From a virus: a DNA stretch of 42,957 bases. The stretch spans positions 1 to 42,957 of the IMG/VR virus record IMGVR_UViG_3300032205_000007; one strand, given 5' to 3'. The position numbers were made by a program, and so were the translations under genes. The notes beneath the pieces were generated by a model. The model made no database searches and had not been told where the DNA came from. It worked only from the letters and a program-made list of their open reading frames with translations. Of this stretch, positions 20,192 to 37,568 are shown in pieces; position 1 is the stretch's first letter, and each line of letters starts with the position of its first letter.

Positions 20192-21204
20192 CGACGATAG
20201 CTCGAACGATCTACCTCGATCCGGCGCAGGCCGCCCTGCTGTCGATGAAGTTGACCAGCGGCATCGACAACCGCGTGAATTTTACTTTCCTGCGGCAGGG
20301 CGGAGCCCCGTACAACACCGACCCTGCGGCGCAGCTTTACCTGCAGGAGAGGTCGACCGGGCGCAATTTGATGTACTTCGCTCCGACCACCGACATCGCC
20401 AACGGCAAGGCGCAGGCGTTCATCCCGGCGGCCGACATCGCCGACCCGAACGGCTACAATCTGCAGGTCCTCGGCACCATTGACGGCGAGCCGACCGTGA
20501 TCGCCAAGGGCTCCGCATCGACGCTGATGTCGGAGGCGATGAGCATGGTGCCCGCAGACTTCATCGACCAGATCGACCTCACCCTCGAGCGCGGCGACCC
20601 CGCCGACCTGATCGTGAACCTGTGGACCGACACGATGAAGGGCCAGCCCTACGACCTGACCGACACCGGCACCTCGGTCAGTGCTGCGATCTACGACCAG
20701 CGCGGGGGCTCCATGATCCAGCCGTTCTCCGTCACCGTCATCGGCGAGAACGAACTCCGCATGTCGCTGACCGAGGCGCAGGTCGACGCCCTGCCCGACG
20801 GATGCTGGTGGAGCCTCATCGCCGCAAAGGGCGGGAGCCTTACGACGCTGGCCGAAGGTAACGTCACCGTGATCGACCCGACATCGGCACCGCTGCCGGA
20901 CACCGACATCGCCATGAGCTACCTCAAGCAGGACAGCCTTGTCGCTCCTGCGACCGGACAGATCGTCCATGCCAACTACGCGCTCGACATACTGAGGGTC
21001 TCGGCATACTCGACCGGCACCACCCCCGTCGACTACACCTCGGTCTGGAGCCTCGTCCGGCCCGCTGACCAGATCACCGTCGGGGCGACGACGTGGGCCG
21101 TCGTCGGCATCACCAACACCGGCTCCTACTACGATGTCACCGTGACCCCGGCGACGCAGTCGGCATCGAGCGGAGCCGTGACGCTGCACCTGCACAGGCC
21201 ATGA
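20188..21204 (+). CDS. Tail fibre-associated protein, 338 aa
   Basis: The GTG at 20188 overlaps the fibre stop (GTGA); the longer frame from 20017 lies in the fibre gene and is rejected. The protein is beta-rich with no catalytic motif I recognise ([31 protein letters not shown]-like strands, [16 protein letters not shown]). It resembles baseplate/fibre partner proteins in layout: repeated strands, Asp/Thr-rich, few Cys. Flanked on both sides by fibre genes with coupled starts, so it is very likely a component of the fibre complex. Confidence 0.6.
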
Positions 21205-22739
21205 CCAAGGTAACCATATCGCGCCCCGGAGGCTCCAAGGATGTCGTCGTCCAGACGGCGAGGACGACCGCGCCCGCCGGGGCTCCGCCAGTGCCCATCG
21301 GACTCGTCGAGGTCACCGAGGTGCGGCCGGTCGAGAACATCCCCGGACCTCCCGGCCCGCAGGGGCCGCCGGGTGCGAACGGCGAGAACGGTGCCGACAG
21401 CACGGTGCCGGGGCCTCAGGGTCCGCAAGGGGTGCCGGGAACCCCCGGAGCCACAGGGCCTCAGGGAGCGACCGGGGCGACCGGGGCACAGGGTCCCAAG
21501 GGCGACACCGGGGCAACCGGCAACACCGGGGCGCAAGGCCCTCAGGGAGCGACCGGCGCGCAGGGTCCGACCGGCAACACCGGGGCGCAAGGCCCTCCGG
21601 GAACGACCGGCGCACAGGGTCCCAAGGGTGACACCGGGGCGACCGGGGCTCCCGGCACCACCGACTGGAACGCGCTGACCAACAAGCCAGCGACCTTCCC
21701 GCCGACATTGCCGATCCCCGAGAGCGGCGTCACCAACCTCGTCACTGACCTCGCCGCGAGGGTGATGGATACCGGCGACACCATGACCGGCGACCTGACC
21801 ATCTCGAAGGCGACGCCGGGCCTGATACTGGACAAGGCCGCCGCAGGGCAGGCCAACGTCATCGCCGGGCGCAAGGGTGGCGTCGCCCGATGGGACATGC
21901 AGTTCGGCAATACTTCCGCAGAAAGCGGCAGCAACGCCGGTTCCGATTTCGCCCTCAATGCCTACAGCGATGCCGGTGCCTACATCTTCAGCCCGCTCAT
22001 CGGCGAGCGGAAGACCGGCCTGATGACGGTTGCCGGAGACCCGACGGTGGCGCTCGGCATCGTCACCAAGCAGTATGCCGACAGCAAGATTTCCAGCATC
22101 GTCCAGACGCTCGCCACCTCGTCCGGCAGCTACTCCAAGCGTGCCGGGCTGAAGTACCTCTCGGTCGAGGGCGTCGGGCCGGGAGGCGGCGGTGCGCAGG
22201 CGGTCACGCCAGCGGCAAACCAGTTTGCGGTGGCGTCCGGGGCCGGGGCAGGAGCTTATGGCTTCAGGCTGTTTACAGCGGCGGAACTGGCAGCATCCAC
22301 GCCATACACCATCGGCGCGGCCGGGACAGGCGGCGTCGTGGCGACAGGCGGCACGGGCGGCACGTCCGAGTTCGGCAGCGGCATCAACTGCACATTGGGT
22401 GGCGGTGTTGGCGCAACGCGGTCGGCCAGCACCGCCACAGTGTTGAGCGTGTCCGGTGGCGTTGGCGGCACTGCCGGAACCGGCTGGACAATCGGTGTCA
22501 ACGGGGAAAACGGTCACGTTTCTGTTGCTGGTATTTCGTCACCGATCAATCTGCGCGGTTGTGGAGGTGCCACCCGTTTCGGATGGGTAGTTGGAGACAG
22601 CTACTTCGGCAATGCGGGCGGTACCGGACCGGGCGGATATGGCTGCGGCGCGGGCGGGCAAGTCACCTACAACAGCACCGCCGGGTCTTCTGCTCCTGCT
22701 GGCGGACCGGCCATGTTCCTGTTCACGGAGTTCTTCTGA
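21201..22739 (+). CDS. Collagen-repeat tail fibre, 512 aa
   Basis: ATGA overlap with the preceding gene. Residues about 48-152 are uninterrupted Gly-X-Y triplets ([26 protein letters not shown]), expected to form a collagen-like triple helix. Next come fibre segments ([23 protein letters not shown]) and a shaft. The C-terminus from about residue 330 is Gly-rich ([24 protein letters not shown]), like Gly-rich adhesin tips. It is the second fibre of the cluster and may carry a separate receptor specificity. Repetitive codons make this gene prone to length change. Confidence 0.8.
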
Positions 22740-22939
22740 TGGCGCGCTATGCAATGATCGACAACGCATCCGGCATCGTCGTCAACGTCATCGAGTGGGA
22801 CGGCAACGAGGCGACATGGAGAGCCCCGAGCGGCTACACGATGGTCGAGGATGTCAACGGCGAGGCCGGTCCCGGCTTCAGTTATGACGGCTCGACCTTC
22901 ACGCCGCCACCCGGCGGCGAGGCGGGGGAGCCTGCATGA
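22739..22939 (+). CDS. Small fibre-region protein, 66 aa
   Basis: The ATG overlaps the last base of the fibre gene stop. [23 protein letters not shown] followed by WRAPSGYTMVEDVNG is a common pattern for roughly 70-residue proteins located next to tail fibres. It is likely a fibre accessory or assembly factor; a direct role has not been shown. Confidence 0.6.
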   Translation: MARYAMIDNASGIVVNVIEWDGNEATWRAPSGYTMVEDVNGEAGPGFSYDGSTFTPPPGGEAGEPA

Positions 22940-23166
22940 CCGTCCTCGCCGCCATCGACCTGCTGACCCTGCACATGGTCGACGGCCGCGTGGTGCAGGC
23001 CAACCCTGCGCAGATCACGCAACTGATCCACCCGAGAGCCCCCGGCAAGCCGAACAAGCAGTTGCCGGACAAGGTCCAGTGCCTCGTCCGCTTCGCCGAC
23101 GGCACCTACCTGTCGGTGGTCGAGGACTGCGAGGCGGTGCGCGACGCGATGAAGAAGGCTCCATGA
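22936..23166 (+). CDS. Hypothetical protein, 76 aa
   Basis: ATGA overlap with the previous gene. It contains a beta-type segment (LHMVDGRVVQANPAQITQLI), a basic linker, then VQCLVRFADGTYLSVVEDCEAV. No family is recognised. It is coupled to fibre genes upstream and to the putative holin downstream. Confidence 0.55.
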   Translation: MTVLAAIDLLTLHMVDGRVVQANPAQITQLIHPRAPGKPNKQLPDKVQCLVRFADGTYLSVVEDCEAVRDAMKKAP

Positions 23167-23378
23167 ACGAGAACCTGACCCGGTCGCTGATCGCGGTGCT
23201 GGTCATCGCAGGGTTCTTCGGACTGGTCGCCGTCGTGCTTCTGGGGTTCGTCGACATCCAGAGCCCCGAGATCGCCAAGCTGGTCGGGCTCTTGGTCGGT
23301 TATGTCGTGGCGATGATGAACCCGATCATCATGAGGTACTTCAGGGAGCCTTCACAGAAAGCCGAAAACGAGGAGTAG
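23163..23378 (+). CDS. Two-helix membrane protein, holin candidate, 71 aa
   Basis: ATGA overlap. Two hydrophobic segments (LIAVLVIAGFFGLVAVVLLGF and IAKLVGLLVGYVVAMM) are separated by a short polar turn (VDIQSPE); the C-terminus is charged (YFREPSQKAENEE). Size, two membrane helices and a polar tail fit a class II holin, which would release the endolysin encoded at 6574. No sequence family is certain and the endolysin is not adjacent. Confidence 0.55.
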   Translation: MNENLTRSLIAVLVIAGFFGLVAVVLLGFVDIQSPEIAKLVGLLVGYVVAMMNPIIMRYFREPSQKAENEE

Positions 23379-23382
23379 GACA

Positions 23383-23607
23383 ATGATCGCCGCAATCGTC
23401 AGCCTGATCGTATGGATATTGGTCATCGGCGTCCTCCTGTGGCTGGTCCGCTGGGTGATGACGCAGGTTCCCCTGCCTGACCCGATAGGCCGCATCGTCA
23501 ACGTCGTGGCGACGGTTCTGGCGGTGGTCGTCATCATCCTTGTGCTGCTGAACCTGTTCGGCGTGGTGGTCGGGGGGTTGAACGTCCCGAAAATACCCCT
23601 CCAATGA
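23383..23607 (+). CDS. Two-helix membrane protein, 74 aa
   Basis: ATG follows the previous stop by 4 bases, with GAGGAGTAGGACA upstream. Two hydrophobic helices: IVSLIVWILVIGVLLWLVRWV and IVNVVATVLAVVVIILVLLNLFGVVV, linked by QVPLPDPIGR. This is a frequent small phage and bacterial membrane protein of unknown function. It may work with the preceding protein in lysis. It is the last gene of the late block. Confidence 0.55.
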   Translation: MIAAIVSLIVWILVIGVLLWLVRWVMTQVPLPDPIGRIVNVVATVLAVVVIILVLLNLFGVVVGGLNVPKIPLQ

Positions 23608-23631
23608 GGCAGGCAGGCCCGCCAGACGCGA

Positions 23632-23662
23632 TTTGGGCCTCGGAGGGTATCCGAGGCCCAAA
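23632..23662. terminator. Strong hairpin between convergent gene blocks
   Basis: A 13-bp perfect stem (TTTGGGCCTCGGA, loop GGGTA, complement) lies 24 bases after the last late gene and before the convergent minus-strand genes. It is flanked by short A and T runs but lacks a real U-tract on either strand, so bidirectional termination is likely from position rather than proved by form. Confidence 0.6.
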
Positions 23663-23689
23663 AACTCACAAAACGCTTGTACGGCCCTC

Positions 23690-23848
23690 CTAGGCCGCCT
23701 GCCGCTCCACGGCCCGCTTTTCGGCTACGGAACGGAAGTGGCTGATCCAGATCGTCAGCCTGTCATAGGCGTCGACGGCCTGAGGGTCGTCATGGTACTT
23801 CAGCAGTGCCTTGCGGACGACCTCATGGACTTTCTCGATGCTTTCCAA
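23690..23848 (-). CDS. Small helical protein, 52 aa
   Basis: The TTG start at 23848 has GGAG 8 bases upstream; TAG at 23690. The product (LESIEKVHEVVRKALLKYHD, then DPQAVDAYDRLTIWISHF, then a basic end RAVERQAA) is helical and looks coded. No family is recognised. It is the last gene of the minus-strand unit, 12 bases after the upstream stop. Confidence 0.5.
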   Translation of the reverse strand: MESIEKVHEVVRKALLKYHDDPQAVDAYDRLTIWISHFRSVAEKRAVERQAA

Positions 23849-23860
23849 TGTCTTTTCTCC

Positions 23861-24358
23861 TTAGCGCTTCTTGGTGCCGCCGAGGCCACCCTGACGGATG
23901 GTCGCCTTGATCAGCGGGTGGTTGTACCAGAGGACCTCGATGGCCTGCTTCTTCATGCCGTAGCGGTAAAGCTGCTCCGCCAGCGCGCGGCTCTCGCACG
24001 CCTTTTCGAGGTAGGTGGTGCCGAGCCCGACGCCGCCGCCGTAGAACGACACGCCGCCGGAGATCGAGCCGAGGCAGGTGATCGCGCCTGCAGCGAGGCC
24101 GGGAGCGCCGATGGCTCCGGGAACGCGGTTCCTGTAGCTGTTCGAGACGCTGTTGCCGGTGGCCTGTCCACCCTGACCGCCCGTGCCGCCGCCACCCCCG
24201 ACGCCCCCGGTGCCGCCTTGGCCGCCGTTGCCGTTGGAGTTGAAGTTGCCGTTCATGAAGCCGACATTGCCGTTGCCGACGTTGTCGTTCTGGGCGAGGG
24301 CAGGTATCGTCGTGGATGCGGCGAGGCAAAGCGTCGCCAAGATCAATTTCAGTTTCAT
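23861..24358 (-). CDS. Secreted Asn/Gly-repeat protein with C-terminal domain, 165 aa
   Basis: ATG at 24358 with GGAGATAACCC upstream. Signal peptide MKLKLILATLCLAASTTIPALA ends at an AxA site, so export by Sec is expected. Residues 23-70 are Asn/Gly-rich (NVGNGNVGFMNGNFNSNGN, then Gly-rich). Residues 80-165 are a distinct domain with two Cys (ITCLGSISGGVSFYGGGVGLG, then KACESRALAEQLYRYGMKKQAIEVLWYNHPL). It is the only one of the four Asn/Gly genes here with such a domain. No function is known to me. Fourth and last gene of the cluster in transcription order. Confidence 0.75.
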   Translation of the reverse strand: MKLKLILATLCLAASTTIPALAQNDNVGNGNVGFMNGNFNSNGNGGQGGTGGVGGGGGTGGQGGQATGNSVSNSYRNRVPGAIGAPGLAAGAITCLGSISGGVSFYGGGVGLGTTYLEKACESRALAEQLYRYGMKKQAIEVLWYNHPLIKATIRQGGLGGTKKR

Positions 24359-24431
24359 GGGTTATCTCCATAGATTGGGTTGGTCGTTGCTCTCCGGGGC
24401 TCCCCTTCGCACAGGGAGCCCCGGTCTGATT

Positions 24432-24767
24432 TCAGAGCCACTTCAGCCACGAAGGCGCATGGTACGCGGGACCGTTTCCCGAGCCGTTGCCGTGGTGTCC
24501 GTTGCCCTGTCCGTTGCCGGTGTTGGCGTTGCCGTTGCCGTCGCCGACATTGTTGTTGCCGTTGTCGTTGCCGGTGTTCCCGTTTCCGTTCCCATCGCCA
24601 ACGTTGTTATTGCCGTTGCCGTTTCCGAGGCCGGAGCCGACACCATTTCCGTTGTTGTTCCCGTTCCCGTTTCCTGAGTTCCCGTTTCCGTTGCCGTTGC
24701 CAGCGCCAGTCGCGCCAAGGGCGGCGGTGGAGAGGCACAGGACCGCGAGCAGGAGCGGCATCCTCAT
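24432..24767 (-). CDS. Secreted Asn/Gly-repeat protein, 111 aa
   Basis: ATGA overlap with the upstream cluster gene, so coupled. The N-terminus MRMPLLLAVLCLSTAALGATG is a short signal peptide. The rest is almost wholly Gly and Asn with scattered Val, Asp, Ser and Thr (VGSGLGNGNGNNNVGDGNGN), ending YHAPSWLKWL. The short aromatic C-terminus could be an anchoring or assembly motif; this is an inference. Confidence 0.7.
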   Translation of the reverse strand: MRMPLLLAVLCLSTAALGATGAGNGNGNGNSGNGNGNNNGNGVGSGLGNGNGNNNVGDGNGNGNTGNDNGNNNVGDGNGNANTGNGQGNGHHGNGSGNGPAYHAPSWLKWL

Positions 24768-25135
24768 GGCGTGTTCCCATTGCCATTGTTGTTCCCGTTG
24801 AAGGAACCGACATTGCCGTTGCCGTTGAACATGCCGCCGTTGTGGTTGCCGTTGAACGAGCCGACATTGCCGTTGCCGCTGGTCGGGGAGGTATTGCCCC
24901 GGCCGTTGAAGGCTCCGATGTTCCCTGAGGAGCCGTTGAAGGAACCGATGTTGCCGGTGCCCGTGTTGCGATAGCCGATGTTGCCGTTCGCATCAGGGGT
25001 GCCGTTGCCGTTGGCGTTGCCGTTGCCGACGCCGACGTTGCCGTTGCCGTTTCCGTTGCCGGAACCGATGGACCACGCCAGAGCCTGCCCTGCAAGGAGC
25101 GACAGCACGGCGGTAAGCACGATGAGCCTGTTCAT
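24764..25135 (-). CDS. Secreted Asn/Gly-repeat protein, 123 aa
   Basis: The ATG at 25135 follows GGAGGCCACC; an ATG at 25156 would put seven residues before the signal peptide and is less likely. Signal peptide MNRLIVLTAVLSLLAGQALA. The mature part alternates NGN with hydrophobic or aromatic steps (NIGYRNTGTGN, IGSFNGSSGN, IGAFNGRGN, VGSFNGNHNG, MFNGNGN). The NxGxxN spacing recalls Asn-Gly solenoid repeats such as those of mycobacterial PPE-MPTR proteins, but this is only a resemblance in composition. Confidence 0.7.
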   Translation of the reverse strand: MNRLIVLTAVLSLLAGQALAWSIGSGNGNGNGNVGVGNGNANGNGTPDANGNIGYRNTGTGNIGSFNGSSGNIGAFNGRGNTSPTSGNGNVGSFNGNHNGGMFNGNGNVGSFNGNNNGNGNTP

Positions 25136-25204
25136 GGTGGCCTCCGTCAGTACCAAGGTGAAGCAGACCGGGGCCGCTTTCAGGGCGACCCCGGAGAGCA
25201 GTCC

Positions 25205-25618
25205 TTAGTGGTTGCCGTTGCCGTTGCCGTTGCCCGAACCGACGCCAGCGTTGCCGTTGCCGTTGACGTTACCGTTGCCGATGCCGCCATTGACGTTGCC
25301 GTTGCCGTTGCCGTTGCCGAAGCCCCAGTTTCCGTTCCCGTTCACGTTGCCGTTGCCGAGGCCGAAGTTCCCGTTACCGTTCCCGTTGCCGTTCCCGATG
25401 CCGTGGTTGAGGTTGCCGTTCAGGTTGCCGTTGCCGAGGCCCCAGTTCCCGTTGCCGTTCCCGTTACCGTTGCCGATGCCGGAGTTGCCATTGCCGTTGC
25501 CGTTGCCGTTGAAGGCACCGACGTTGCCATTGCCGTTTCCGTTGCCGGAACCGATGGCGGCGAAGGCAGGGGCAACAGCCATGGACAGAACGGCTGCGAG
25601 TGCTACGATCTTCTTCAT
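25205..25618 (-). CDS. Secreted Asn/Gly 13-residue repeat protein, 137 aa
   Basis: ATG at 25618 with GAGGAAACGAACC upstream. Signal peptide MKKIVALAAVLSMAVAPAFA. The mature chain is about nine repeats of a 13-residue unit of the form GNGNxNGNxNxG followed by Ile, Leu, Phe or Val; units include GNGNGNGNGNWGL and GNGNVNGNGNWGF. Regular spacing of one buried-type residue per unit suggests a solenoid or amyloid-like fold. No other residues that could be catalytic are present. First of the four cluster genes in transcription order. Confidence 0.75.
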   Translation of the reverse strand: MKKIVALAAVLSMAVAPAFAAIGSGNGNGNGNVGAFNGNGNGNGNSGIGNGNGNGNGNWGLGNGNLNGNLNHGIGNGNGNGNGNFGLGNGNVNGNGNWGFGNGNGNGNVNGGIGNGNVNGNGNAGVGSGNGNGNGNH

Positions 25619-25690
25619 GGTTCGTTTCCTCTATCAAGTGCAAGAGGGACCATCCCCCCTGCCGTACATTCCCGTCTGACCGGGAATTCG

Positions 25691-26236
25691 TTAGAACATG
25701 CTGTCTTCGCTGTCGTCGACCTCGCCGTCGTCGAACGCCGACGATGCGGGAGCGCGGCCGTCGATGCGCGGCGTGTCCGTCTTTATGATCTGGATGTGGT
25801 TGAGGGCAAAGCTGACACCCTTCTTCCCCGAGTTCATCCAAGCATACGGGGTGATGTTGAGGCGGACAAGCTGCCCGGCCCAAACTTCTTCCGGCAGAAG
25901 GATGTCCTGCCGCTGGGCGTTGACGATGCCGGGCTTCGACTTGGTCCAAGGGTTGATGAACATGTCCCCGGCGTTGAAGCCGTTGTACTTGCCGGACTTC
26001 TCACCGGCATCGCGGAACGGCATGCGCACGTCCTTGAGGAGGACCTTCTCGCCCCACTCGTCGCGGGCGGCCTTCATGCAGGCGTCCTGCATGGCCTTGT
26101 AGGCGGGGTTCTGCTGCTGGGCGGGATTGAAGATGCCCGTCGCCGAGTAGACCGCTTCGCCGCCTTCGGCGCGCGGCCGTGGCTGGAAGACGTGGGGGAA
26201 GGCGAGGGTGCAGTAAGGGGTATTGATCGTAGGCAT
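25691..26236 (-). CDS. ssDNA-binding protein, gp2.5/DUF2815-like, 181 aa
   Basis: Coats single-stranded DNA during replication and recombination. The N-terminus MPTINTPYCTLAFPHVFQPRPRAEGGEAVYSATGIF matches the DUF2815 pattern, as do GKYNGFNAGDMFIN and VWAGQLVRLNITPYAWMNSGKKGVSFALNHIQII (OB-fold strands). The C-terminus is strongly acidic and ends in Phe (DDGEVDDSEDSMF), the hallmark tail by which T7 gp2.5-type proteins contact their polymerase. ATG follows CAGGAGAAGTCAA. It sits near the Cas4-like nuclease as in other phages. Confidence 0.8.
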   Translation of the reverse strand: MPTINTPYCTLAFPHVFQPRPRAEGGEAVYSATGIFNPAQQQNPAYKAMQDACMKAARDEWGEKVLLKDVRMPFRDAGEKSGKYNGFNAGDMFINPWTKSKPGIVNAQRQDILLPEEVWAGQLVRLNITPYAWMNSGKKGVSFALNHIQIIKTDTPRIDGRAPASSAFDDGEVDDSEDSMF

Positions 26237-26285
26237 TTGACTTCTCCTGTTTCAATGTTTCCGGTGTTGCAATGCGTAGCGGTGG

Positions 26286-26360
26286 TGGCTCCCCGAGCCG
26301 GTTTCGAACCAGCAACCCCCCGGTTAACAGCCGGATGCTCTACCGTTGAGCTATCGAGGA
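26286..26360 (-). tRNA. tRNA-Asn (anticodon GTT)
   Basis: Read on the minus strand from 26360: acceptor TCCTCGA pairs with TCGGGGA; D-arm GCTC/GAGC; anticodon stem TCCGG/CCGGG with loop CTGTTAA; T-arm GCTGG-TTCGAAA-CCGGC. Discriminator G is followed by an encoded CCA (26286-26288). All stems close with only G-T wobbles. Asn is the most used residue, with Gly, of the four repeat proteins transcribed just downstream, so the tRNA may serve them; this is inference. Confidence 0.93.
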
Positions 26361-26376
26361 ATTTCACCGTGTCGTC

Positions 26377-26405
26377 AAGGTAGGTTCAAGTATTCAAAGT
26401 GTCAA
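26377..26405 (-). promoter_or_regulatory. Putative promoter for tRNA-Asn, SSB and Asn/Gly genes
   Basis: On the minus strand TTGACA (26405-26400), 17-base spacer containing TTGAA, then TACCTT (26382-26377). A perfect -35 and correct spacing make it the best promoter inside the minus unit. It overlaps the 3' end of the nuclease gene and would start transcription just before the tRNA. Confidence 0.55.
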
Positions 26406-27120
26406 CCCCATCGTCAAAAATATCCGCCGCCATCGAATTCTTGTACGATTTGAAGGTCTTGCACTCCGACTTCCGTACGCACCAGCGGCAATAGGTGCCG
26501 GTCTTTTCGGTCTCATCGCCTTGGCGGATGCGAAGGATCGCAGGCTTCAGTTCCCCATCGCGCCAGTCGGCAAGCTCCCTCGCCGTCACCGTATGGGTCT
26601 TGGGCATGGGGTCGATGCGCGGCTGGTGGACGGTCAGGTAGACCCTCTCGAAGCCGCGACCCGGCCACAGCGTCGTCGCCGCAGAGACGGCGTAGATTTT
26701 AAGCTGGTTGCTGTCGGGGCTGACCGGCACCCCCATGCCGTATTTCAGGTCGATGATGCGAAGGTTGTTGTGGAAGCGGGCGGCGCAGTCGGTGGTGCCC
26801 CAGACCTCGTTGTTGAAGGCGACCCTCTTCTCGATGTGGACCTCGGCCCCGAGCCCCTGCAGGTCCTGCACCTGCGCGATGTAGGGGTTCAGCGCCCTCA
26901 GCATCGGCAGGCCGACGATGAACTCCTGCCCCTCGACGGTGATCTTGCCGGGAGGGAACATGTCGCCGTTGATGATCTTCTCGGCGATGGCGTGCGCTGC
27001 GGTGCCCTCGCGGGCGTAGACCGACGACGGCCGCGTCCGCCCTGCGGCCTTGGTGATCGAGGCAGGGCAGTTCATCCACATCTCTGCAGAGGATGGGGCC
27101 ATGGCGGCATGGTCGGACAT
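26386..27120 (-). CDS. Cas4/RecB-like nuclease (DUF2800), 244 aa
   Basis: PD-(D/E)XK nuclease pattern: GTAAHAIAEKII with His43, EVWGTTDCAARF with Asp111, then IIDLKYGMG with Asp124-x-Lys126, and the following SNQLKIYAV. Cys18 near the N-terminus plus Cys211, Cys214 and Cys220 form the four-Cys set that binds an iron-sulphur cluster in Cas4/AddB-type nucleases. It probably resects DNA ends for recombination. ATG follows TAGGAGCCCCG. Expected partners are the neighbouring ssDNA-binding protein and helicase. Confidence 0.82.
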   Translation of the reverse strand: MSDHAAMAPSSAEMWMNCPASITKAAGRTRPSSVYAREGTAAHAIAEKIINGDMFPPGKITVEGQEFIVGLPMLRALNPYIAQVQDLQGLGAEVHIEKRVAFNNEVWGTTDCAARFHNNLRIIDLKYGMGVPVSPDSNQLKIYAVSAATTLWPGRGFERVYLTVHQPRIDPMPKTHTVTARELADWRDGELKPAILRIRQGDETEKTGTYCRWCVRKSECKTFKSYKNSMAADIFDDGVDTLNT

Positions 27121-27128
27121 CGGGGCTC

Positions 27129-27569
27129 CTAGAATTTGAGATTGAGCAGGTTGCTGAGTTCGAACTCGGCGTCGAGGATGTTGGCGCGGCGCGCACGGCG
27201 TTCCCCGGCATCCACCAGCATCGAGTATTTATGCTGCATCGACACCGACCGCAGGGCGTCGATGGCCGCGCGGTCGGCCATCTCCCCAGAGCGCACGCGG
27301 TTGGCGCGGCGGTAGTGGGCGTCGTGGTCGTCGACCTTGCCGGTGATCAGGTCGCGAAGGCTCTGGATGCGGCTGGCGTGCCAACTGATGTCATTTGCCG
27401 GAGCCCCGGATTGGGCGTAGTCCGCCAGCGGCCCCTGCCCCTGCGTCAGGTAGTTGGCCTTATGCGCCCACACGTTGCTGGCGGACAGTTTCGACGCCGT
27501 CTCGGCGGCGATGGACGGCCCCGCGACGGCGGTGCCGCCGAGGAGCCCGAGGAAGTTGCGCCGCTTCAT
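27129..27569 (-). CDS. Tat-signal protein of unknown function, 146 aa
   Basis: Starts MKRRNFLGLLGGTAVAGPSIAAE, a clear twin-arginine export signal: RRNFL, hydrophobic core, and a Ser-Ile-Ala-Ala cleavage region. The mature part is helical and rich in Arg, Ala and Asp (DAHYRRANRVRSGEMADRAAIDALRSVSMQHKYSM, ILDAEFELSNLLNL). No family is recognised. ATGA overlap with the upstream gene shows it is expressed with DNA-metabolism genes, an odd setting for an exported folded protein. Confidence 0.7.
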   Translation of the reverse strand: MKRRNFLGLLGGTAVAGPSIAAETASKLSASNVWAHKANYLTQGQGPLADYAQSGAPANDISWHASRIQSLRDLITGKVDDHDAHYRRANRVRSGEMADRAAIDALRSVSMQHKYSMLVDAGERRARRANILDAEFELSNLLNLKF

Positions 27570-28057
27570 GCCGCAATCGCCTTCTTGATCTCGGCGAAGT
27601 GCTTGGCTTCGACCTCAGGGAAGGACTTCGCGCCGTGGCCGTACTTGGTCAGGATTTCGCGGATGCGCTTGACGTTCCCGGCGAGGAACATGGTGTGAAG
27701 GCTGGCCAGCACCTCCTCCTTCAGCTTGAGGTCGGCGAGGCTGTCCTGCGGCCCTGCGTCGGGCTGCTCCTCCTCGACGATCTCCACCTCAAAGACCTCC
27801 TCCGGCTCGGCGGGGCCGGTGGCTTCTTCGACCGGAGCCTCGGCGGGTTCCTCCTTGGCCTTGCCGTTGCCGACAGGGTTGACGCGGCGGTGGGCGCGGC
27901 GTGGTTTCGCCTCCACTTCCGGACGCGCGTCCGGAAGTGGGGCCTCCTCGACGCGGGTGGGGATGATCTCCATCGGCGGCTGCTGGCTGACGATGACTTG
28001 CATCTGGAAGAAAATGTCTTGAAAGGTCTCACCGGTAAGGGTCAGGGTTGCGGTCAT
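27566..28057 (-). CDS. Acidic hypothetical protein, 163 aa
   Basis: The ATG at 28057 follows GAAGGAGTATCGACC, a variant of the shared leader; a start at 28111 is rejected. N-terminal 30 residues are hydrophobic-mixed (TLTLTGETFQDIFFQMQVIV). Residues 45-105 are a very acidic Pro/Glu-rich linker. Residues 110-163 form a helical module (LKEEVLASLHTMFLAGNVKRIREILTKYGHGAKSF) of a type seen in phage proteins next to recombination genes. No function is assigned. Confidence 0.65.
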   Translation of the reverse strand: MTATLTLTGETFQDIFFQMQVIVSQQPPMEIIPTRVEEAPLPDARPEVEAKPRRAHRRVNPVGNGKAKEEPAEAPVEEATGPAEPEEVFEVEIVEEEQPDAGPQDSLADLKLKEEVLASLHTMFLAGNVKRIREILTKYGHGAKSFPEVEAKHFAEIKKAIAA

Positions 28058-28070
28058 GGTCGATACTCCT

Positions 28071-29417
28071 TCAATTGAACAGATCATGGAAGTCCTTGGC
28101 CTTGCGGGCAAGGATCGATTGGATGCGGTCGTCTATGGTGCCATGCGCCGTCAGGAAGCGGGCGACGACGCCTTCGTACTGGCCTATTCGGTGAACCCTC
28201 GCGGCGGCCTGCACGTTGTCGCCCACCGCGTAGGACGCCTCGACGAAGATCACGTCGGAGCAGCGGCAGTTGGGGCCGACCAAGGTGAGGCCGGTGCCCA
28301 TGGCTTGGATGTTGCCGACCATCAGGCGGCAGCGCGGCTCCATCAGGAAGTCGTCGATGGCCTTGGCCCTCTCAACTGTCGTGGTCGAGCCGGTGATCAG
28401 CGTCGGGTGGTGGTCGCGGAGCCTCGCATGGAGCCCCTCGACGACATCCTTGTGGTGGGCGAAGACGAGAACTTTCTTGTGGGGGTTCAGGTTCTGCAGG
28501 AAGTCGTCGATGTACTCGACGGCGGGCTGCAGCTTGGCCAACCCCAACAGGTGGCGGAGCCTCATGACGTGGACATCGCCAGCGGCTCCGGCGAGATACT
28601 TCAGGAACTCCTCGTCGGAGGCGAAGGCCGGTAGCTGCGGCAGGTTGCCGATGACGTTGGGCGTCGGGGCGATGGGCACCACGTCATAGCGGATGTCGGG
28701 AAGCTCATCGAGTACATCTTCCTTCCGCACCCTCAGCATGAAGCCGTTCATCTTCTCCCGCAATCCGGCGAGGTTCTTGGAGCCCTCGATGACGCGCACC
28801 GATGGTCCTTGCCCGAACCGCTTCTGGACCACCTTGCAGTAGGCGTCCTCGAACTGCCACTGGTTCATGACGACGCCGGAGCCGTCCGTGATGGCCGCAG
28901 GGTGGAGAGCCTTCAGGATCGGGTACAGTTCCCCTGCGTGGTTCGGGGCGGGGGTGCCGGACATCGGCAGGACATAGCCGAGGTGCCCGAGCAGCTTGCC
29001 GAGGATGGCGCGGGTCCGGTTCGAGCCGGGGTTCTTGACGAAGGCTGCCTCGTCGATGACGGCCATGTCGAACTTCGGCGTCTTCAGCAGGCCCGAAACG
29101 AAAGGACCCTCCTTGATCGACAGCAGGCCATAGGTCAGGACGATGACGCCGGGGTTGCGGAGGAAGCCGAGGTCGGCGGGGCCACGGATGACGGTGACCG
29201 GCATGTCCGGCCACCACTTCTTCATCTCCGAGGCCCAGACGTAGCGGCCCGACGCAGGGCATACGACGAGCATGCGCCTGACCTTGCGGCGCTTCGCCGT
29301 CTCGATGGCGGTGCGCGACTTTCCGAGCCCCGGATCGAAGCCGAGGTAGACTTGCTGCCCGGTGGCGGCGCTGGCTGCGGCCGCCTCCTGAAACGGGTAG
29401 AGTGGATCAGTGGACAC
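28071..29417 (-). CDS. SNF2-type SF2 helicase, 448 aa
   Basis: ATP-dependent DNA translocase. Motifs: GFDPGLGKS (Walker A, 27-34), DEAA (122-125), SGTPAPN (motif III), then VLVFAHHKDVVEGL (IV), GNIQAMGTGLTL (V) and QAAARVHRIGQ (VI), the last typical of SNF2/SWI2-like enzymes. It is minimal in length, with no added domains. The GTG at 29417 has GGAGGG 5 bases upstream and overlaps the previous stop; an ATG at 29435 lies upstream in frame. It likely remodels replication or recombination intermediates with the RuvC-like and Cas4-like enzymes of this unit. Confidence 0.9.
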   Translation of the reverse strand: MSTDPLYPFQEAAAASAATGQQVYLGFDPGLGKSRTAIETAKRRKVRRMLVVCPASGRYVWASEMKKWWPDMPVTVIRGPADLGFLRNPGVIVLTYGLLSIKEGPFVSGLLKTPKFDMAVIDEAAFVKNPGSNRTRAILGKLLGHLGYVLPMSGTPAPNHAGELYPILKALHPAAITDGSGVVMNQWQFEDAYCKVVQKRFGQGPSVRVIEGSKNLAGLREKMNGFMLRVRKEDVLDELPDIRYDVVPIAPTPNVIGNLPQLPAFASDEEFLKYLAGAAGDVHVMRLRHLLGLAKLQPAVEYIDDFLQNLNPHKKVLVFAHHKDVVEGLHARLRDHHPTLITGSTTTVERAKAIDDFLMEPRCRLMVGNIQAMGTGLTLVGPNCRCSDVIFVEASYAVGDNVQAAARVHRIGQYEGVVARFLTAHGTIDDRIQSILARKAKDFHDLFN

Positions 29418-29805
29418 TGCCGCCCTCCATATCATCGCCGAACATCCCCTTGACGATTTCGCTGACTTCCTCGCCCGTCATGACCTTGGCGTCGGCATCG
29501 GTGATGGCGGTCATGGCGGCGACCATCCTGAGGACCATCTGCATGAACATGGCGACAAGCAGGGCCTGCTTGGTGCCCCTGAAGGGAGCCTCGACGACCC
29601 AGTCGGCGACGTAGACGGCCAGCGCCATGCCACTTGTCATCGGCGTCGCACCACCCTCCGCGTCGAGGGCCGCGCCGAGGCGGTCGATGAGGGCGTTGAT
29701 CTGCTCGCATATTTCCGGGGTCAGCGGCAGGCCGATGATGTCGGTGTCGATGCCGAGGACCCCGAAGAATGTCTTCTCCTTTGCCTTTTCCTTGCTGTCG
29801 GTCAT
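29407..29805 (-). CDS. Hypothetical protein, 132 aa
   Basis: Starts MTDSKEKAKEKTFFGVLGIDTD and contains a helical, Met/Ala-rich middle (RGTKQALLVAMFMQMVLRMVAAMTAITDADAKV) that could lie on a membrane but is not a clear transmembrane segment. It overlaps the helicase start by 11 bases and the upstream gene by 4. No family is recognised. Confidence 0.6.
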   Translation of the reverse strand: MTDSKEKAKEKTFFGVLGIDTDIIGLPLTPEICEQINALIDRLGAALDAEGGATPMTSGMALAVYVADWVVEAPFRGTKQALLVAMFMQMVLRMVAAMTAITDADAKVMTGEEVSEIVKGMFGDDMEGGSVH

Positions 29806-29990
29806 TGCTTGGTTTCCTTGTTGTCGTACTGTCGGCGCATGCGCGCCGAGAGGATGTCGCCGAGCTTGATGACATGCTCGGCGAGGTCTTTGAGATGGCC
29901 GACCTGCAGGTTTATGGTGGCCTGCTGGATAAGCACGATGACGACCAGACCGGCGATGCAGAGGCTCTGGATGAGGTCGGTGCTGTTCAC
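29802..29990 (-). CDS. Small single-pass membrane protein, 62 aa
   Basis: The GTG at 29990 overlaps the upstream stop. One hydrophobic helix (SLCIAGLVVIVLIQQATI) near the N-terminus, then an amphipathic helix (GHLKDLAEHVIKLGDILSARMRRQYDNKETKQ). The layout resembles small inner-membrane accessory proteins, including short i-spanin-like forms, but there is no embedded partner gene to support a spanin call. Confidence 0.55.
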   Translation of the reverse strand: MNSTDLIQSLCIAGLVVIVLIQQATINLQVGHLKDLAEHVIKLGDILSARMRRQYDNKETKQ

Positions 29991-30199
29991 AGCTTGAGCC
30001 CTCCGCAGATGATGAAGACGATGCCGACGATCACCAGCATCGGCAGTGCCGCGACGGCGGCGAACAGCCCCGCCGTGGCGAAGAAGTCGGAAAAGGTCGG
30101 AGGGCTCCAGCCGTTGAGTATTCCCCTCGCGGAGAAGAAGGCTCCCGTCAGCATCGTGGTGCAGAACCACCAGCGGACGTATTCGGTCAGGGCGTTCAT
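29987..30199 (-). CDS. Small membrane protein, 70 aa
   Basis: ATG preceded by the shared leader (GGAGAAACGACC). One weak hydrophobic stretch near residue 15 and a strong one at 42-66 (LFAAVAALPMLVIVGIVFIICGG). No family is recognised. It is coupled to another small membrane protein downstream, so the pair may form one membrane complex. Confidence 0.6.
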   Translation of the reverse strand: MNALTEYVRWWFCTTMLTGAFFSARGILNGWSPPTFSDFFATAGLFAAVAALPMLVIVGIVFIICGGLKL

Positions 30200-30489
30200 G
30201 GTCGTTTCTCCTTCTTGATTGCCCAGACAACCGCTCTGCGGCCGCTGGGGGTAAGGCGGGTATGCCCGCTGTCGATGACGAAGCCGCCTTCGACGAGTTC
30301 GATGCGGCGGGGACGCTGGGTGCTGGGGTTCATCCGCAGCAGGTTCTGCATCTCATGGTCGGTCAGGCCGCCGCGAGGATACTGGCGGAGGAGGTCGAGG
30401 ACAAACCTCCGCTGGCTGTTGGCCGCAGGTTCGTTCTGCAGCCATGCGTCGCGGCTGGTCGGGCTGCCGCGAACGTACTTGTCGGTCAT
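30196..30489 (-). CDS. Winged-helix DNA-binding protein, 97 aa
   Basis: Residues 25-90 have a winged-helix pattern: SQRRFVLDLLRQYPRGGLTDHEMQNLL (helices 1-2), STQRPRRIELVEGGFVIDS (recognition helix and strand) and HTRLTPSGRRAVVWAI (wing). This arrangement is frequent in phage proteins that bind DNA or act as small regulators. It overlaps neighbours by 4 bases on both sides. Confidence 0.7.
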   Translation of the reverse strand: MTDKYVRGSPTSRDAWLQNEPAANSQRRFVLDLLRQYPRGGLTDHEMQNLLRMNPSTQRPRRIELVEGGFVIDSGHTRLTPSGRRAVVWAIKKEKRP

Positions 30490-30728
30490 TGCGGCACCTC
30501 GTTCTCATCGACGGCCACCATGTTGATCGTCGGAGGCTCCGACACCTCGATGTCGTCGGCGACGCGGCGGAGCAGCGCCGGGATTTTCGCGATCACGCTC
30601 TGGTCCTTCGTCATCACCGAGAAGCCGCTGCCTTCGTTGCCGTCGAGGACGATCAGCAGCACGGTCTCTGCCTTGGTGACCTTGCGGGCGAGATCGCAGG
30701 CGAGGTCGTATTTTCCGAATGCACTCAT
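30486..30728 (-). CDS. Hypothetical protein, 80 aa
   Basis: The ATG at 30728 follows AAAGGACAACGACC (shared leader); a start at 30761 would overlap upstream coding and lacks a ribosome site. The protein (ETVLLIVLDGNEGSGFSVMTKD, then IAKIPALLRRVADDIEV) looks like a small alpha/beta fold. No family is recognised. Confidence 0.6.
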   Translation of the reverse strand: MSAFGKYDLACDLARKVTKAETVLLIVLDGNEGSGFSVMTKDQSVIAKIPALLRRVADDIEVSEPPTINMVAVDENEVPQ

Positions 30729-31195
30729 GGTCGTTGTCCTTTGTTGGTGGCCAGAAACCACTCCCCGAGGAGCAAGGCCTCGGCGCGGTTCTGGTGCTTC
30801 TTCAGTCCGAGGCTCTCGGCCAGCGCGGGGTAACGCTGCAGGGCCAGAGCCCTCGACTTCTCCTTGTCCGGGCCGATGAGGCCGAAATGCTTCTTCCAGA
30901 CGGTGGGGGCGACGTAGTAGAGCGGCACGCCATAGGCGACGAGGACGCCCCTGATGATACCCACGGCGACGCCGAACTTGAAGGTCGAGGAGACCCCCTG
31001 CTTCGGCATCGAGTGGACATCCTCGACGATGGCGACGCAGGGCGCAGCGAGCCGCACCATGCGCGAAAGGGCTGCGGCGTCGACCTGCCCGTTGACGATG
31101 GCGAGGTCGCCGACGCTCTGACCGCCAGCGCCGAAGAAGACGGCGATGGCACCCGACACCGCTCCGGGGTCGATGGCTATGACGTTGTGGCTCAT
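30725..31195 (-). CDS. RuvC-like Holliday junction resolvase, 156 aa
   Basis: RNase H-fold endonuclease expected to cut branched DNA before packaging. Acidic motifs: IAIDPGAVSGAIAVF with Asp9, VAIVEDVHSMPKQG with Glu58, and HQNRAEALLLGEW near the C-terminus. The region GVPLYYVAPTVWKKHFGL and KEKSRALALQRYP is typical of phage RuvC-like enzymes. The start at 31195 gives the family N-terminus; the longer frame from 31339 is upstream coding in another frame. ATGA overlap with the upstream gene. Confidence 0.85.
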   Translation of the reverse strand: MSHNVIAIDPGAVSGAIAVFFGAGGQSVGDLAIVNGQVDAAALSRMVRLAAPCVAIVEDVHSMPKQGVSSTFKFGVAVGIIRGVLVAYGVPLYYVAPTVWKKHFGLIGPDKEKSRALALQRYPALAESLGLKKHQNRAEALLLGEWFLATNKGQRP

Positions 31196-31821
31196 GATAC
31201 TATCGGCCTCACCCCGATGGCGTAGTCGATGCCTGCCGTGCCGTGCTTGAAGATCGTCCGGTGGAGGTCGATGGCTTCCTCCTCGAGCGGCTTCAGGTCG
31301 ACGCCGATGGTCTCGGCGGCATGCACGATGTTCTCCCACGTCCGTTGGTACGGCCCCTTGATGTCGAAGCCACCGGCCGCGACATAGGCCGGGAAGTCGG
31401 CGTGCCGGACTATCGCCGCGATGGTGACCTGCCGGATGACCTGATAGACGCTCGCATGGCTCCCGGCGACGGGGTACCGCATGTGATGCTGTCGAAGTCG
31501 GCGGCGGAGCGCAGTGCGGTCGAGGCCGTTAGCGAACTGAGCCGCCGGTCCAGCAAGTGGAAACGGGTGGGCCTCCGGCACGACCGGGGGCTCCCCTTTC
31601 TGTTCGTCGTCGAAAGCCTCGGCGGCAGGGCTGGGTTCGCCGCCGTTCATCGCATCCGTCACGGCGGCAATGGCCGTCGAATAGCGCACGGCGTCGGCGC
31701 GGGCCTGCTCCGCCTTCTCGGTATACTGGCGTATTTTATCGAGGTAGTGGACGCGGGCCTTGGTGGCGTCGGCTTCCTTCTGCCTGAAGGTCCTAAGCAG
31801 TTCTTCTACGCTGGTTGTCAT
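31192..31821 (-). CDS. Hypothetical protein with N-terminal coiled coil, 209 aa
   Basis: The ATG at 31821 follows CGGAGAACGACC. Residues 1-60 are coiled coil (ELLRTFRQKEADATKARVHYLDKIRQYTEKAEQARADA). After an acidic linker, residues 105-209 form a second domain (ALRRRLRQHHMRYPVAGSHASVYQVIRQVTIAAIVRHADF). No catalytic motif is visible. It overlaps the upstream gene by 29 bases. Position between regulators and the resolvase suggests a DNA-transaction accessory role. Confidence 0.6.
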   Translation of the reverse strand: MTTSVEELLRTFRQKEADATKARVHYLDKIRQYTEKAEQARADAVRYSTAIAAVTDAMNGGEPSPAAEAFDDEQKGEPPVVPEAHPFPLAGPAAQFANGLDRTALRRRLRQHHMRYPVAGSHASVYQVIRQVTIAAIVRHADFPAYVAAGGFDIKGPYQRTWENIVHAAETIGVDLKPLEEEAIDLHRTIFKHGTAGIDYAIGVRPIVS

Positions 31822-32119
31822 GGTCGTTCTCCGTTGGTCGTTTCCCGACGACGCGAAGGTCGTCGATACGGTTGATGATCTTCTCGTCGAGCGCCAGTTG
31901 GACCAGCGCCGGAAGCCAGAAGACGGGGACTGAGTTGCGCATCCGCCATCCCGCGATGCTGCTGAGAGGCAGGCGGGGGTAGCCCCGCTCGACCAGTTTC
32001 TGGGCGATGCTCCTCGATGATCCAAGACCGAAGAGCATCTCATCGAAGCGCCACTGCGGCGGCGGATAGGTGTGCTTGCCCCAGCCACCGCGAGGGTAAT
32101 GTCCGCTGCCGTTGCTCAT
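31793..32119 (-). CDS. Helix-turn-helix-like protein, 108 aa
   Basis: The region RFDEMLFGLGSSRSIAQKLVERGYPRLPLSSIAGWRMRNSVPVFWLPALV has the spacing of a small helix-turn-helix unit: a helix, a short turn, a 'PLSSIAGWR' recognition helix and a follow-up helix. Similar Cro-like proteins in phages choose 'start codes' by the phrase IxxWRxRNxVP. The C-terminus is basic. It is the second gene of the minus unit, a fitting place for a transcription regulator. Confidence 0.6.
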   Translation of the reverse strand: MSNGSGHYPRGGWGKHTYPPPQWRFDEMLFGLGSSRSIAQKLVERGYPRLPLSSIAGWRMRNSVPVFWLPALVQLALDEKIINRIDDLRVVGKRPTENDHDNQRRRTA

Positions 32120-32122
32120 TGG

Positions 32123-32404
32123 TCACTCCTGTGATTTGGCCGCCAGCTTGAGCGACTTGACTTCACTATGCTTGATGAAGGGTTCGACGACCTCACGGCC
32201 GAGGGCGGCGATCAGCGACGCCTTGTCGATGGTCTCGCGGTTCGACACCTGCACGTAGGCGGTATACTGGCGGCCTTCGCGCTCCTCGGCGGAACCGTTC
32301 ATGAGGGCGCTGCGGAGGATTTCCTCGCGCTCCTGCATGATCTTGATTTCCTCGCGGAGGGCAGCAAGCTCATCGGCGGGGTGGATGTTGATCTCGTCGT
32401 TCAT
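32123..32404 (-). CDS. Hypothetical protein, first gene of minus unit, 93 aa
   Basis: ATG at 32404 with ACGGAGAAACGACC upstream, and a promoter at 32432-32460. Residues 1-40 are coiled coil (ADELAALREEIKIMQEREEILRSALM), followed by a beta/alpha part (YTAYVQVSNRETIDKASLIAALGREVVEPF). No family is recognised. As the first gene after an early-type promoter it may be made first after infection. Confidence 0.65.
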   Translation of the reverse strand: MNDEINIHPADELAALREEIKIMQEREEILRSALMNGSAEEREGRQYTAYVQVSNRETIDKASLIAALGREVVEPFIKHSEVKSLKLAAKSQE

Positions 32405-32431
32405 GGTCGTTTCTCCGTTTGCGATTTCGAC

Positions 32432-32460
32432 AACATAGGGCTTGCGTATCGAAACTTCAA
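32432..32460 (-). promoter_or_regulatory. Putative leftward promoter of the minus unit
   Basis: On the minus strand TTGAAG (32460-32455), 17-base spacer ending AAGCCC, then TATGTT (32437-32432). This matches the plus-strand copies at 39149 and 37492 closely, including the AGCCC word before the -10. It overlaps the rightward promoter at 32442-32470. Confidence 0.65.
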
Positions 32461-32470
32461 CCCCTATTTT
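32442..32470 (+). promoter_or_regulatory. Putative rightward promoter of the replication unit
   Basis: TTGCGT (32442-32447), 17-base spacer containing TTCAAC, then TATTTT (32465-32470). A GTTGAA half-site lies just downstream (32478-32483). Transcription would begin near 32477, 30 bases before the first gene. The two promoters share the CTTCAAC element. Confidence 0.5.
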
Positions 32471-32507
32471 ACCGAAAGTTGAAACTTTTCCGAAGGGGTG
32501 AAAACCA

Positions 32508-32666
32508 ATGTTCTGGCTCTGGCTACTCTGCCGTAGGTCCGACTGCCGTCCTTACCAGCACCGTCCAAAACGCAAGGGGCAGGACAGCAGGAAGGCGATG
32601 GTATTCATCTTCGCCATCTTCGTCGCATCCCTCTGGACCGTGCTCTCCCAGATGGTGAAGCCATGA
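32508..32666 (+). CDS. Small membrane protein, 52 aa
   Basis: ATG follows CCGAAGGGGTGAAAACCA; stop overlaps the polymerase start (ATGA). The N-terminus MFWLWLLCRRSDCRPYQ is aromatic and then basic, and the C-terminal half has one membrane helix (AMVFIFAIFVASLWTVL). No family is recognised. It is the first gene of the rightward unit. Confidence 0.6.
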   Translation: MFWLWLLCRRSDCRPYQHRPKRKGQDSRKAMVFIFAIFVASLWTVLSQMVKP

Positions 32667-34576
32667 CCAACCGCATCCTGCACCTCGACCTCGAAACCTT
32701 CGGCAGCCTCGACCTGAAGACGGTCGGGGTCGAGAACTATGTCGAGGACCCGATGTTCGATGTCACCGTGGTGGCATGGGCGTTCGACAACGACAAGGTG
32801 TCTTCGGTGTCGTGGCCCAATACGCGAAGGCTGCCGAACCATCTCATCGCGCACATAGAGAACGGCGGCGAGGTGAGGGCGTGGGTGAAGGCGTTCGAAT
32901 GGAACGTGCTGCGGCGGTTCTACCGGCTCGATGTCGCCCCCGAGCAGATGGTCTGCACGATGCAGAAGGCTCTGGCCTACGGCCTGCCGGGGAAGCTGCT
33001 CGATGCAGGCAAGGCGCTGAATGCTGCGGTCATAAAGGACGAGACGGCCCGGCGGCTGATGCTCGACATGTCGAAGCCGAGGAAGGATGGATCATCGTGG
33101 CATGCACAGGCGGCGCTGGGCAACGCCGCTGCAGTCCTCAAGCTCGATAGTCTGGCGGCCTACTGTCGCGGCGATGTCGAAGCCGAACGCTGCATCGACG
33201 GCATGGTGCCGGACCTCTCGTCGAAGGAGGCTGCGCTGTCGGTCTTGGACGCCAAGATGAACGAGAAGGGGCTCTTGGTCGACAAGCTGTCCGTGATGGC
33301 GCTGCTGAAGGCGGCGACGATAGCGCGGTCGAACCTGTGCATGGAGGCGAACAAGCTGACATCCGGCAAGGTGACGAACCCCGGCACGGAGAGCGGAAGG
33401 GTGCTGGTCTGGCTCGGCGACGCAGGGCTGATGCTGCCGGACCTGACGAAGGACACGGTGGCTACGGCTCTGGCGCAGGGGAGCCTCGACCCTAGGGTGC
33501 GGAGGCTCCTGCAGATCAGGCAGGCGCTGGCGAGGACATCGCTGGCGAAGCTCGATGCGATGATGGCGGTGGCCTCCAGCATCGACGGCCGGGCGAGGAA
33601 CATGCTGCAGTTCAATGGGGCAGGACGGACGCTGCGGTGGGCGGGTCGGCTGATCCAGCCGCAGAACCTTCCGCGGCCGGTCAAGGGGCTAGACCCCGCC
33701 AAGGTCATCGCGAAGGCGGTCCACGGGCCGGAGGACATGGGGCTCCTGTCGGCCGATGTGCTGCACGACCTCTCCAAGTGCCTCAGGGCGATGTTCACGG
33801 CGGTTCAGGGCATGGTGTTGGTGTCGGTCGACTTCAGTCAGATCGAAGCTCGCGTGCTGGCGTGGCTGGCGGGGCAGGTGGATGTTCTGGAAACCTTCAG
33901 GAAGGGCGAGGATGTCTATGTGCTGCAGGCCTCGAAGGTGGGGTCAGCCGACCGGCAGCTTGGCAAGGTGCTGGTGCTTGCATGCGGCTTCGGCATGGGA
34001 GGATCGAAGTTTCTGGATACTGCGGCAACCTACGGGGTGGTGCTGACGGGCTATGAGGCGCAGGCCTTCGTCGATGCATGGCGCAAGGGCAATCCGAGGA
34101 TCGTGTCGTATTGGTACGATGTCGAGAAGGCGGTCAAGGCGGCGGTGCTGCGGCAGGGCGTGGTGACGACGGCGGGTCGGCTGTCGTTCCGCATGACGAA
34201 GGGGGTGCTGCAGATGAAGAAGCCGAACGGCGAGAAGCTCAACTACCACAACATGCGCTTCGACCGCGACGGCGGCCTGATCTTCGACGGCGTCAACGGC
34301 ACGACGAAGAAGTGGGGGGTCGAGAGGACCTATGGCGGTCGTCTGGTGGAGAACGCGGTCCAGTCGGTGGCTCGGGACATCATGGCGGAGGCGATGCTCA
34401 GGGTCGAGCGGCAGTTCCGCATGGTGCCGGTGCTGACGGTCCACGATGAACTGGTCTGGGAAACGTACGAAGTCAGTGAAAGCGGGCTGAAGTTTCTGGT
34501 CGATGGGGTGCCGCCGTGGGCCTCGGGCCTGCCGGTGGCTTCGGAACTGCACATAGGTTTCCGATACGGAAAGTGA
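32663..34576 (+). CDS. Family A DNA polymerase, 637 aa
   Basis: Replicative polymerase. The N-terminal 3'-5' exonuclease domain has Asp9 and Glu11 in HLDLETFG and a late motif AAYCRGDVEAE. Polymerase motif A is SVDFSQIEAR (Asp390), motif B is Arg431-x3-Lys435 with Phe443-Gly444, and motif C is VHDELVWE (Asp595, Glu596). Phe in motif B, as in E. coli Pol I rather than T7 (Tyr), predicts discrimination against dideoxynucleotides. Length is close to compact phage enzymes. It is followed by the primase-helicase, forming a replication cluster. Confidence 0.95.
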   Translation: MTNRILHLDLETFGSLDLKTVGVENYVEDPMFDVTVVAWAFDNDKVSSVSWPNTRRLPNHLIAHIENGGEVRAWVKAFEWNVLRRFYRLDVAPEQMVCTMQKALAYGLPGKLLDAGKALNAAVIKDETARRLMLDMSKPRKDGSSWHAQAALGNAAAVLKLDSLAAYCRGDVEAERCIDGMVPDLSSKEAALSVLDAKMNEKGLLVDKLSVMALLKAATIARSNLCMEANKLTSGKVTNPGTESGRVLVWLGDAGLMLPDLTKDTVATALAQGSLDPRVRRLLQIRQALARTSLAKLDAMMAVASSIDGRARNMLQFNGAGRTLRWAGRLIQPQNLPRPVKGLDPAKVIAKAVHGPEDMGLLSADVLHDLSKCLRAMFTAVQGMVLVSVDFSQIEARVLAWLAGQVDVLETFRKGEDVYVLQASKVGSADRQLGKVLVLACGFGMGGSKFLDTAATYGVVLTGYEAQAFVDAWRKGNPRIVSYWYDVEKAVKAAVLRQGVVTTAGRLSFRMTKGVLQMKKPNGEKLNYHNMRFDRDGGLIFDGVNGTTKKWGVERTYGGRLVENAVQSVARDIMAEAMLRVERQFRMVPVLTVHDELVWETYEVSESGLKFLVDGVPPWASGLPVASELHIGFRYGK

Positions 34577-37520: not shown

Positions 37521-37568
37521 GGGTCCATCGAAACGGGGCCGAGGCCTCACCCAGCAGGAGTAACGACC

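Follow-up and report, generated by a model that had tools for sequence, protein, structure and literature searches.

Phage morons that change the host envelope and block superinfection include Llp of T5 and Cor of phi80, which are single proteins acting on receptors. Among bacterial secreted systems, curli (CsgA and CsgB, exported via CsgG) are built from small Sec-exported Asn/Gly-rich repeat proteins with a predicted solenoid fold and more than one subunit, and the curli amyloid, a fibre coat, blocks phages T7 and T5 (PMC8346279). Pumps of the MacB family take small Sec-delivered proteins out of the periplasm, among them the enterotoxin STII and the ~10 kDa dispersins (PMC8277102). Here we describe a cassette of four genes for secreted proteins, P1 to P4, carried on an IMG/VR viral record of 42,957 bases (the window), and compare it with these systems and with its nearest relatives in bacteria and phages.

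By sequence, the closest true relatives of P1–P3 are the products of an operon in Hyphomicrobiales, and those of P4 are the proteins of phrog_20531. The likeness to curli is one of outline, as the curli repeat is ~22 residues long whereas that of P1 is 13. The Pfam curlin profile matches none of the window proteins or P2 relatives scanned, and CsgG (PF03783) was found in one of eight carrier genomes, on another contig, with positive controls detected; membership of the curli system was rejected on the 13-residue period, the lack of a curlin match, and the lack of CsgG in the other seven genomes. PPE-MPTR / Pentapeptide_2 (PF01469) was also rejected, as a single P2 relative from a bacterium matched it, with E 0.013 and 15.8 bits, short of the cut-off of 26.4. 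Like the MacB cargoes STII and dispersin, the cassette proteins are small and, judging by their signal peptides, probably Sec-delivered to the periplasm, and a MacB-family pump gene is adjacent in several bacteria; however, profile searches reveal no family relation to these cargoes, and next to the phage cassettes we saw no gene for a pump. If the model proposed below is right, P1–P4 would resemble T5 Llp and phi80 Cor as small exported phage proteins acting at the cell surface, but as the products of several genes in an operon for repeat proteins that came from bacteria, rather than as single proteins.

The cassette and its setting in the phage genome

The window encodes a terminase, an Mx8-like portal and a major head protein, together with a DNA polymerase, a primase, a SNF2-like helicase, an exonuclease and an ssDNA-binding protein. 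No close DNA relative of positions 22000–34000 was found in the phage collection, and PADLOC returned no match. As replication genes are present and no integrase was found among the window genes covered by a partial scan, the phage is probably lytic; its host is probably a rhizobium-like bacterium, judging only by the habitat of the cassette's relatives. On the minus strand, one module begins with genes for replication and recombination, continues with the ssDNA-binding gene and ends with P1–P4, where it meets the structural module of the plus strand. A repeat search identified a perfect 13-bp hairpin (23632–23662) at this junction, between the plus-strand genes ending at 23607 and the minus-strand genes. 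Lying between two converging operons, this hairpin is likely a bidirectional terminator. Elsewhere on the plus strand there is a long open reading frame with collagen-like GXY repeats adjoining the tail fibre genes (21093–22739), and a cobaltochelatase-like pair formed by a CobS-like ATPase gene (37497–39143; phrog_249 'porphyrin biosynthesis', E 4e-52) and a CobT-like gene (39217–40842).

All four cassette genes are on the minus strand. P1 (25205–25618; 137 aa) has a Sec signal peptide followed by 13-residue repeats of the form [GF]-NGNxNGNxNxG-h, and P2 (24764–25135; 123 aa) a Sec signal peptide, an IGSGNGNGNGN start and then GNIGxFNG-type repeats. P3 (24432–24767; 111 aa), whose start overlaps P2 by 4 nt, has a Sec signal peptide and an Asn/Gly-rich chain with an aromatic C-terminus (PAYHAPSWLKWL), and P4 (23861–24358; 165 aa) a Sec signal peptide, a Gly/Asn-rich linker and a C-terminal phrog_20531 domain. 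An earlier note on this DNA described four consecutive genes with Sec-type signal peptides, each start having its own ribosome site or overlap, and both observations hold on reading the sequence: each N-terminus has a basic segment, a hydrophobic segment and an Ala-X-Ala-like site, and each start a GGAG/GAGG-type site or, at P2/P3, a gene overlap. The upstream genes are likewise as the note placed them on the cassette strand, with an ssDNA-binding/annealing protein gene (25691–26236, minus strand; Enc34_ssDNA-bd E 5e-26, phrog_112 E 2e-32) and, beyond it, the only tRNA gene of the window, a tRNA-Asn (GTT) predicted by ARAGORN (26286–26360, minus strand).

The note's further claim that the mature chains are almost entirely Asn and Gly applies to P1–P3, where these residues account for 79%, 58% and 69% of the chain after residue 22 (the P2 share computed from a slightly longer start), but not to P4. 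In the latter Asn makes up 8% of codons, Asn/Gly richness is limited to the N-terminal linker, and residues ~75–157 form a non-repetitive domain with two conserved cysteines that matches phrog_20531 (E 1.4e-5). The period of P1 is strictly 13/26 residues, with a lag-13 identity of 0.72 compared with 0.31 +/- 0.04 in parity-preserving shuffles, none of 500 of which scored as high. Between P3 and P4 the repeat search identified an 11-bp perfect hairpin (24394–24424) that was not flagged by terminator prediction and is possibly an attenuator or processing site; expression of P4 may differ in level from that of P1–P3.

Relatives in Hyphomicrobiales and in other viruses

A repeat scan covered 84,980 species genomes, and among the matches listed are many Hyphomicrobiales with P1 and P2 adjacent and in the window order. 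A P3-like gene follows the pair in bacterial loci L164 and L317, lying tightly 3' of P2 in L164, as it does in viral contigs L053 and L305, and downstream of P2 in L317. Carriers of P1-P2(-P3) belong to Mesorhizobium, Methylobacterium, Aureimonas, Roseiarcus and Beijerinckiaceae. Of 99 genomes of the Mesorhizobium genus, 29 carry P1, most of them with a copy of the same length, and the gene is under purifying selection in Mesorhizobium (pN/pS 0.16 among 19 copies). The operon is patchily distributed, since the P2 profile, which has limited sensitivity for such low-complexity sequences, matches 4/150 genomes of the order and 5/149 of a family. Pfam and NCBIfam searches gave no significant match for the bacterial operon proteins, and we found no description of the P1–P3 family in the literature, nor an assay of export, fibre formation or exclusion for any of its members.

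The bacterial operons share with the window their gene order (P1 then P2 on one strand, with P3 after P2 where present), signal peptides, 13-residue GNGNxNGNxNxGh repeats after the P1 signal peptide, GNIGxFNG repeats and, in some, P2–P3 coupling. They differ in being chromosomal, in lacking a nearby tRNA-Asn (the fetched bacterial loci contain no tRNA gene except one tRNA-Pro), in that P4 is a neighbour in some of them only (three loci have a P4-domain gene close to the P1–P2 pair), and in their flanks. In 16 of the examined loci the neighbours are divergent genes for a sensor kinase, a LuxR-type regulator or both, and in five they are MacA-ABC-MacB, two of these being incomplete at a locus or contig end; most have a two-component system rather than MacAB as neighbour, and some have neither. 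Neither arrangement occurs beside the window cassette, where the minus-strand neighbours are the SSB and exonuclease genes and the small genes nearby gave no match in profile searches; of the bacterial locus, the phage has just the part that encodes the secreted proteins. P1–P3 very probably originate from the bacterial operon, although the chromosomal copies may include some in prophages.

The search of phage and host genomes that the earlier note proposed recovers, besides the Hyphomicrobiales operon, the full cassette in one further viral contig and P1-P2-P3 in another. The first of these, L053 (IMGVR_UViG_3300048939_000043), was found by a pattern scan of viral contigs and has the window gene order, all on the minus strand: P1 (8402–8776), a tRNA-Asn (8273–8347), P2 (7783–8250), P3 (7469–7768) and P4 (6901–7395). 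Window P1 is 63–73% identical to the L053 and Hyphomicrobiales chromosomal copies, P2 shows 49–66% identity in an alignment with the L053 and bacterial copies, and P4 is 54% identical between window and L053. The phrog_20531 profile does not match the L053 relative. Low-complexity-filtered tblastn of the window open reading frames against L053 gives matches only for P4 and a weak tail-fibre segment, and the contig nearest to the window by its SSB (L002; 61% over the SSB) is without the cassette. On these comparisons the cassette is transferred as a unit among phages that otherwise differ, because the window and L053 share little else and L002 does not carry it. L053 also encodes a fifth secreted protein (4674–5243, minus strand), with a P1-type repeat at its end and GGGGTPP linkers.

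The second contig, L305 (5.6 kb), carries P1-P2-P3 directly upstream of the head-closure, neck and tail-terminator (head-tail connector) genes; a small lipoprotein-like gene without a PHROG match (3226–3588, minus strand) is situated between P3 and the head-closure gene. The suggestion that the cassette is expressed with non-structural genes thus fits its location in the window but is not general, and as the L305 copy lies beside structural genes the timing during infection is not fixed. The earlier note had also named as refuting the case that these are common host proteins of known role carried by chance. P1-P2-P3 is indeed a chromosomal operon of Hyphomicrobiales, which goes halfway towards that case, but the operon is uncharacterised, and chance carriage is unlikely because unrelated viral contigs keep the gene order and two pair it with a tRNA-Asn. 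Similarly, the claim of a new kind of phage system stands in that we found no described one, and is weakened in that P1-P2-P3 is also a bacterial operon. The cassette genes, as read from the sequences, are more than a low-complexity accident, given the P1 period, the same-order cassette in a second viral contig and the pN/pS of P1.

Other Asn/Gly-rich proteins occur in the viral contigs. An identical 90-aa secreted protein stands alone in two ~40-kb contigs, L032 (6635–6907, minus strand) and L309 (4921–5193, plus strand), in which no tRNA genes were found. A frequent family in L007, L011–L013, L034, L040 and many others starts with a Cys-containing KCPPGQYYCYTDKKCKPIPxG segment followed by an NG linker, and has both short and long members. 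Most viral matches to GNGNGNGNGN were rejected as unrelated NG linkers within longer proteins, and in one set of matching contigs that included L053 the others have no secreted NG protein, their repeats being in other frames or unrelated open reading frames.

For P4, tblastn of the window and L053 proteins (and of P1) against known phages returned nothing, for which low-complexity masking is partly responsible, and a Methylobacterium P4 relative used as query found distant phage relatives. Three P4 relatives match phrog_20531 with E values of 2e-11 to 9e-14. This family includes Agrobacterium phage JP1_110 and, from Pelagibacter phages, HTVC033P gp46, HTVC115P gp54 and Mosig 202, which share with P4 the C-terminal domain, signal peptide and low-complexity linker. 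These phages differ from the window in that no NG cassette is annotated alongside in the records viewed.

The tRNA-Asn gene

Both contigs with the full cassette have as their sole tRNA gene a tRNA-Asn(GUU) on the cassette strand, located upstream of P1 in the window and between P1 and P2 in L053. The two have their loops in common but quite different acceptor stems, which suggests that the two were acquired separately, with long divergence as the alternative. In an approximate gene set the cassette accounts for ~5% of codons and ~22% of Asn codons. The pairing is suggestive of a tRNA matched to the Asn demand of the cassette; this link comes from two phages, and we count against it both that number and the absence of tRNA genes from the two contigs with one NG protein each. 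The fetched viral loci are too small a sample for a base rate of tRNA carriage.

These observations bear on whether the cassette is a passenger, that is, a selfish or host-beneficial locus of the kind associated with lysogeny (biofilm, adhesion, desiccation), giving no benefit in lytic growth and accompanied by a tRNA through coincidence or for general translation support. Its patchy occurrence as an accessory operon in bacteria and the moron-like position of the L305 copy are in keeping with such a role. We regard it as unlikely, as the window phage is probably lytic and two phages each retain one tRNA only, the one that fits. That at least one unrelated phage also pairs the operon with a sole tRNA-Asn suggests a use of the operon by phages in remodelling the surface of the infected cell.

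A candidate coat on the infected cell

AlphaFold2 predicts P1 to be a beta-solenoid to which each 13-residue repeat contributes two short strands, a fold of moderate confidence (pLDDT 76–81 in the central repeats, pLDDT 70 for the predicted monomer, pTM 0.55). As regards functional amyloids in general, which are defined by dye-binding cross-beta fibres, the observation is this predicted monomer. Foldseek with this model matches no solved structure (best E 0.98); the top match is an RTX block, and an RTX beta-roll was rejected at that E value and a TM of 0.15. The P4 model (pLDDT 45) was too poor for use and was set aside.

In the explanation that we tentatively favour, though as a whole it falls somewhat short of probable, the phage carries a copy of the Hyphomicrobiales operon P1-P2-P3 joined to P4, a secreted phrog_20531 protein. 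P1–P4 would pass through Sec and then leave the periplasm via a host MacAB-type pump, and would assemble, one beta-solenoid upon another, into fibres or a coat covering the infected cell, with P1 as the main subunit, P2 and P3 as minor or anchoring subunits and P4 as an accessory. The phage would benefit from an envelope that is altered while infection proceeds, most likely in that competing phages would adsorb less well, and its tRNA-Asn would add Asn-decoding capacity for a burst of Asn-rich protein. The coat or fibres and the protection from competitors are drawn from the P1 solenoid model, the MacB cargoes and the blocking of phages by curli. Against the coat we count the tendency of AlphaFold2 to render repeats as solenoids, the pTM and the absence of a solved-structure match, as well as our seeing no pump gene near the phage cassettes and the two-component system being the commoner bacterial neighbour. 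A surface structural role is slightly on the probable side, superinfection exclusion as the benefit to the phage is doubtful, and the full sequence in which unrelated Hyphomicrobiales phages captured the operon, each independently adding a tRNA-Asn, and build a competitor-excluding coat is rather unlikely.

That none of the phage cassettes has a visible pump gene at its side also fits retention in the periplasm, where the proteins might have a part in envelope stress, in blocking the entry of DNA or in the timing of lysis, and where the two conserved cysteines of the P4 domain could make a disulphide. We consider retention quite improbable, since repetitive hydrophilic chains resemble surface or matrix proteins and an export pump is adjacent in several bacteria. 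A secreted coat could alternatively assist release and dispersal by reducing the stickiness of cells and debris, thereby sparing progeny from debris or biofilm. Dispersin lowers stickiness for enteroaggregative E. coli. Small Sec-type proteins are encoded beside pumps of the MacB family, which count dispersins among their cargo (PMC8277102), and a Pelagibacter phage has its P4 relatives close to a lysozyme gene, but the window cassette is situated among SSB and exonuclease genes, away from lysis genes, and an aid to release is distinctly unlikely.

We infer that in this cassette a phage carries an envelope trait derived from its hosts and centred on a family of proteins not described before. 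If the favoured reading of a captured operon forming a coat is true, a multigene operon of secreted repeat proteins would join the host-altering traits carried by phages, as a phage-made extracellular coat with a composition-matched tRNA. It would also be a rare case of a single phage tRNA gene matched to one identifiable demand, which would make the purpose of phage tRNAs directly testable. The bacterial operon itself is frequent in Mesorhizobium; its products are probably secreted, and in some genomes a MacB-family pump is adjacent.
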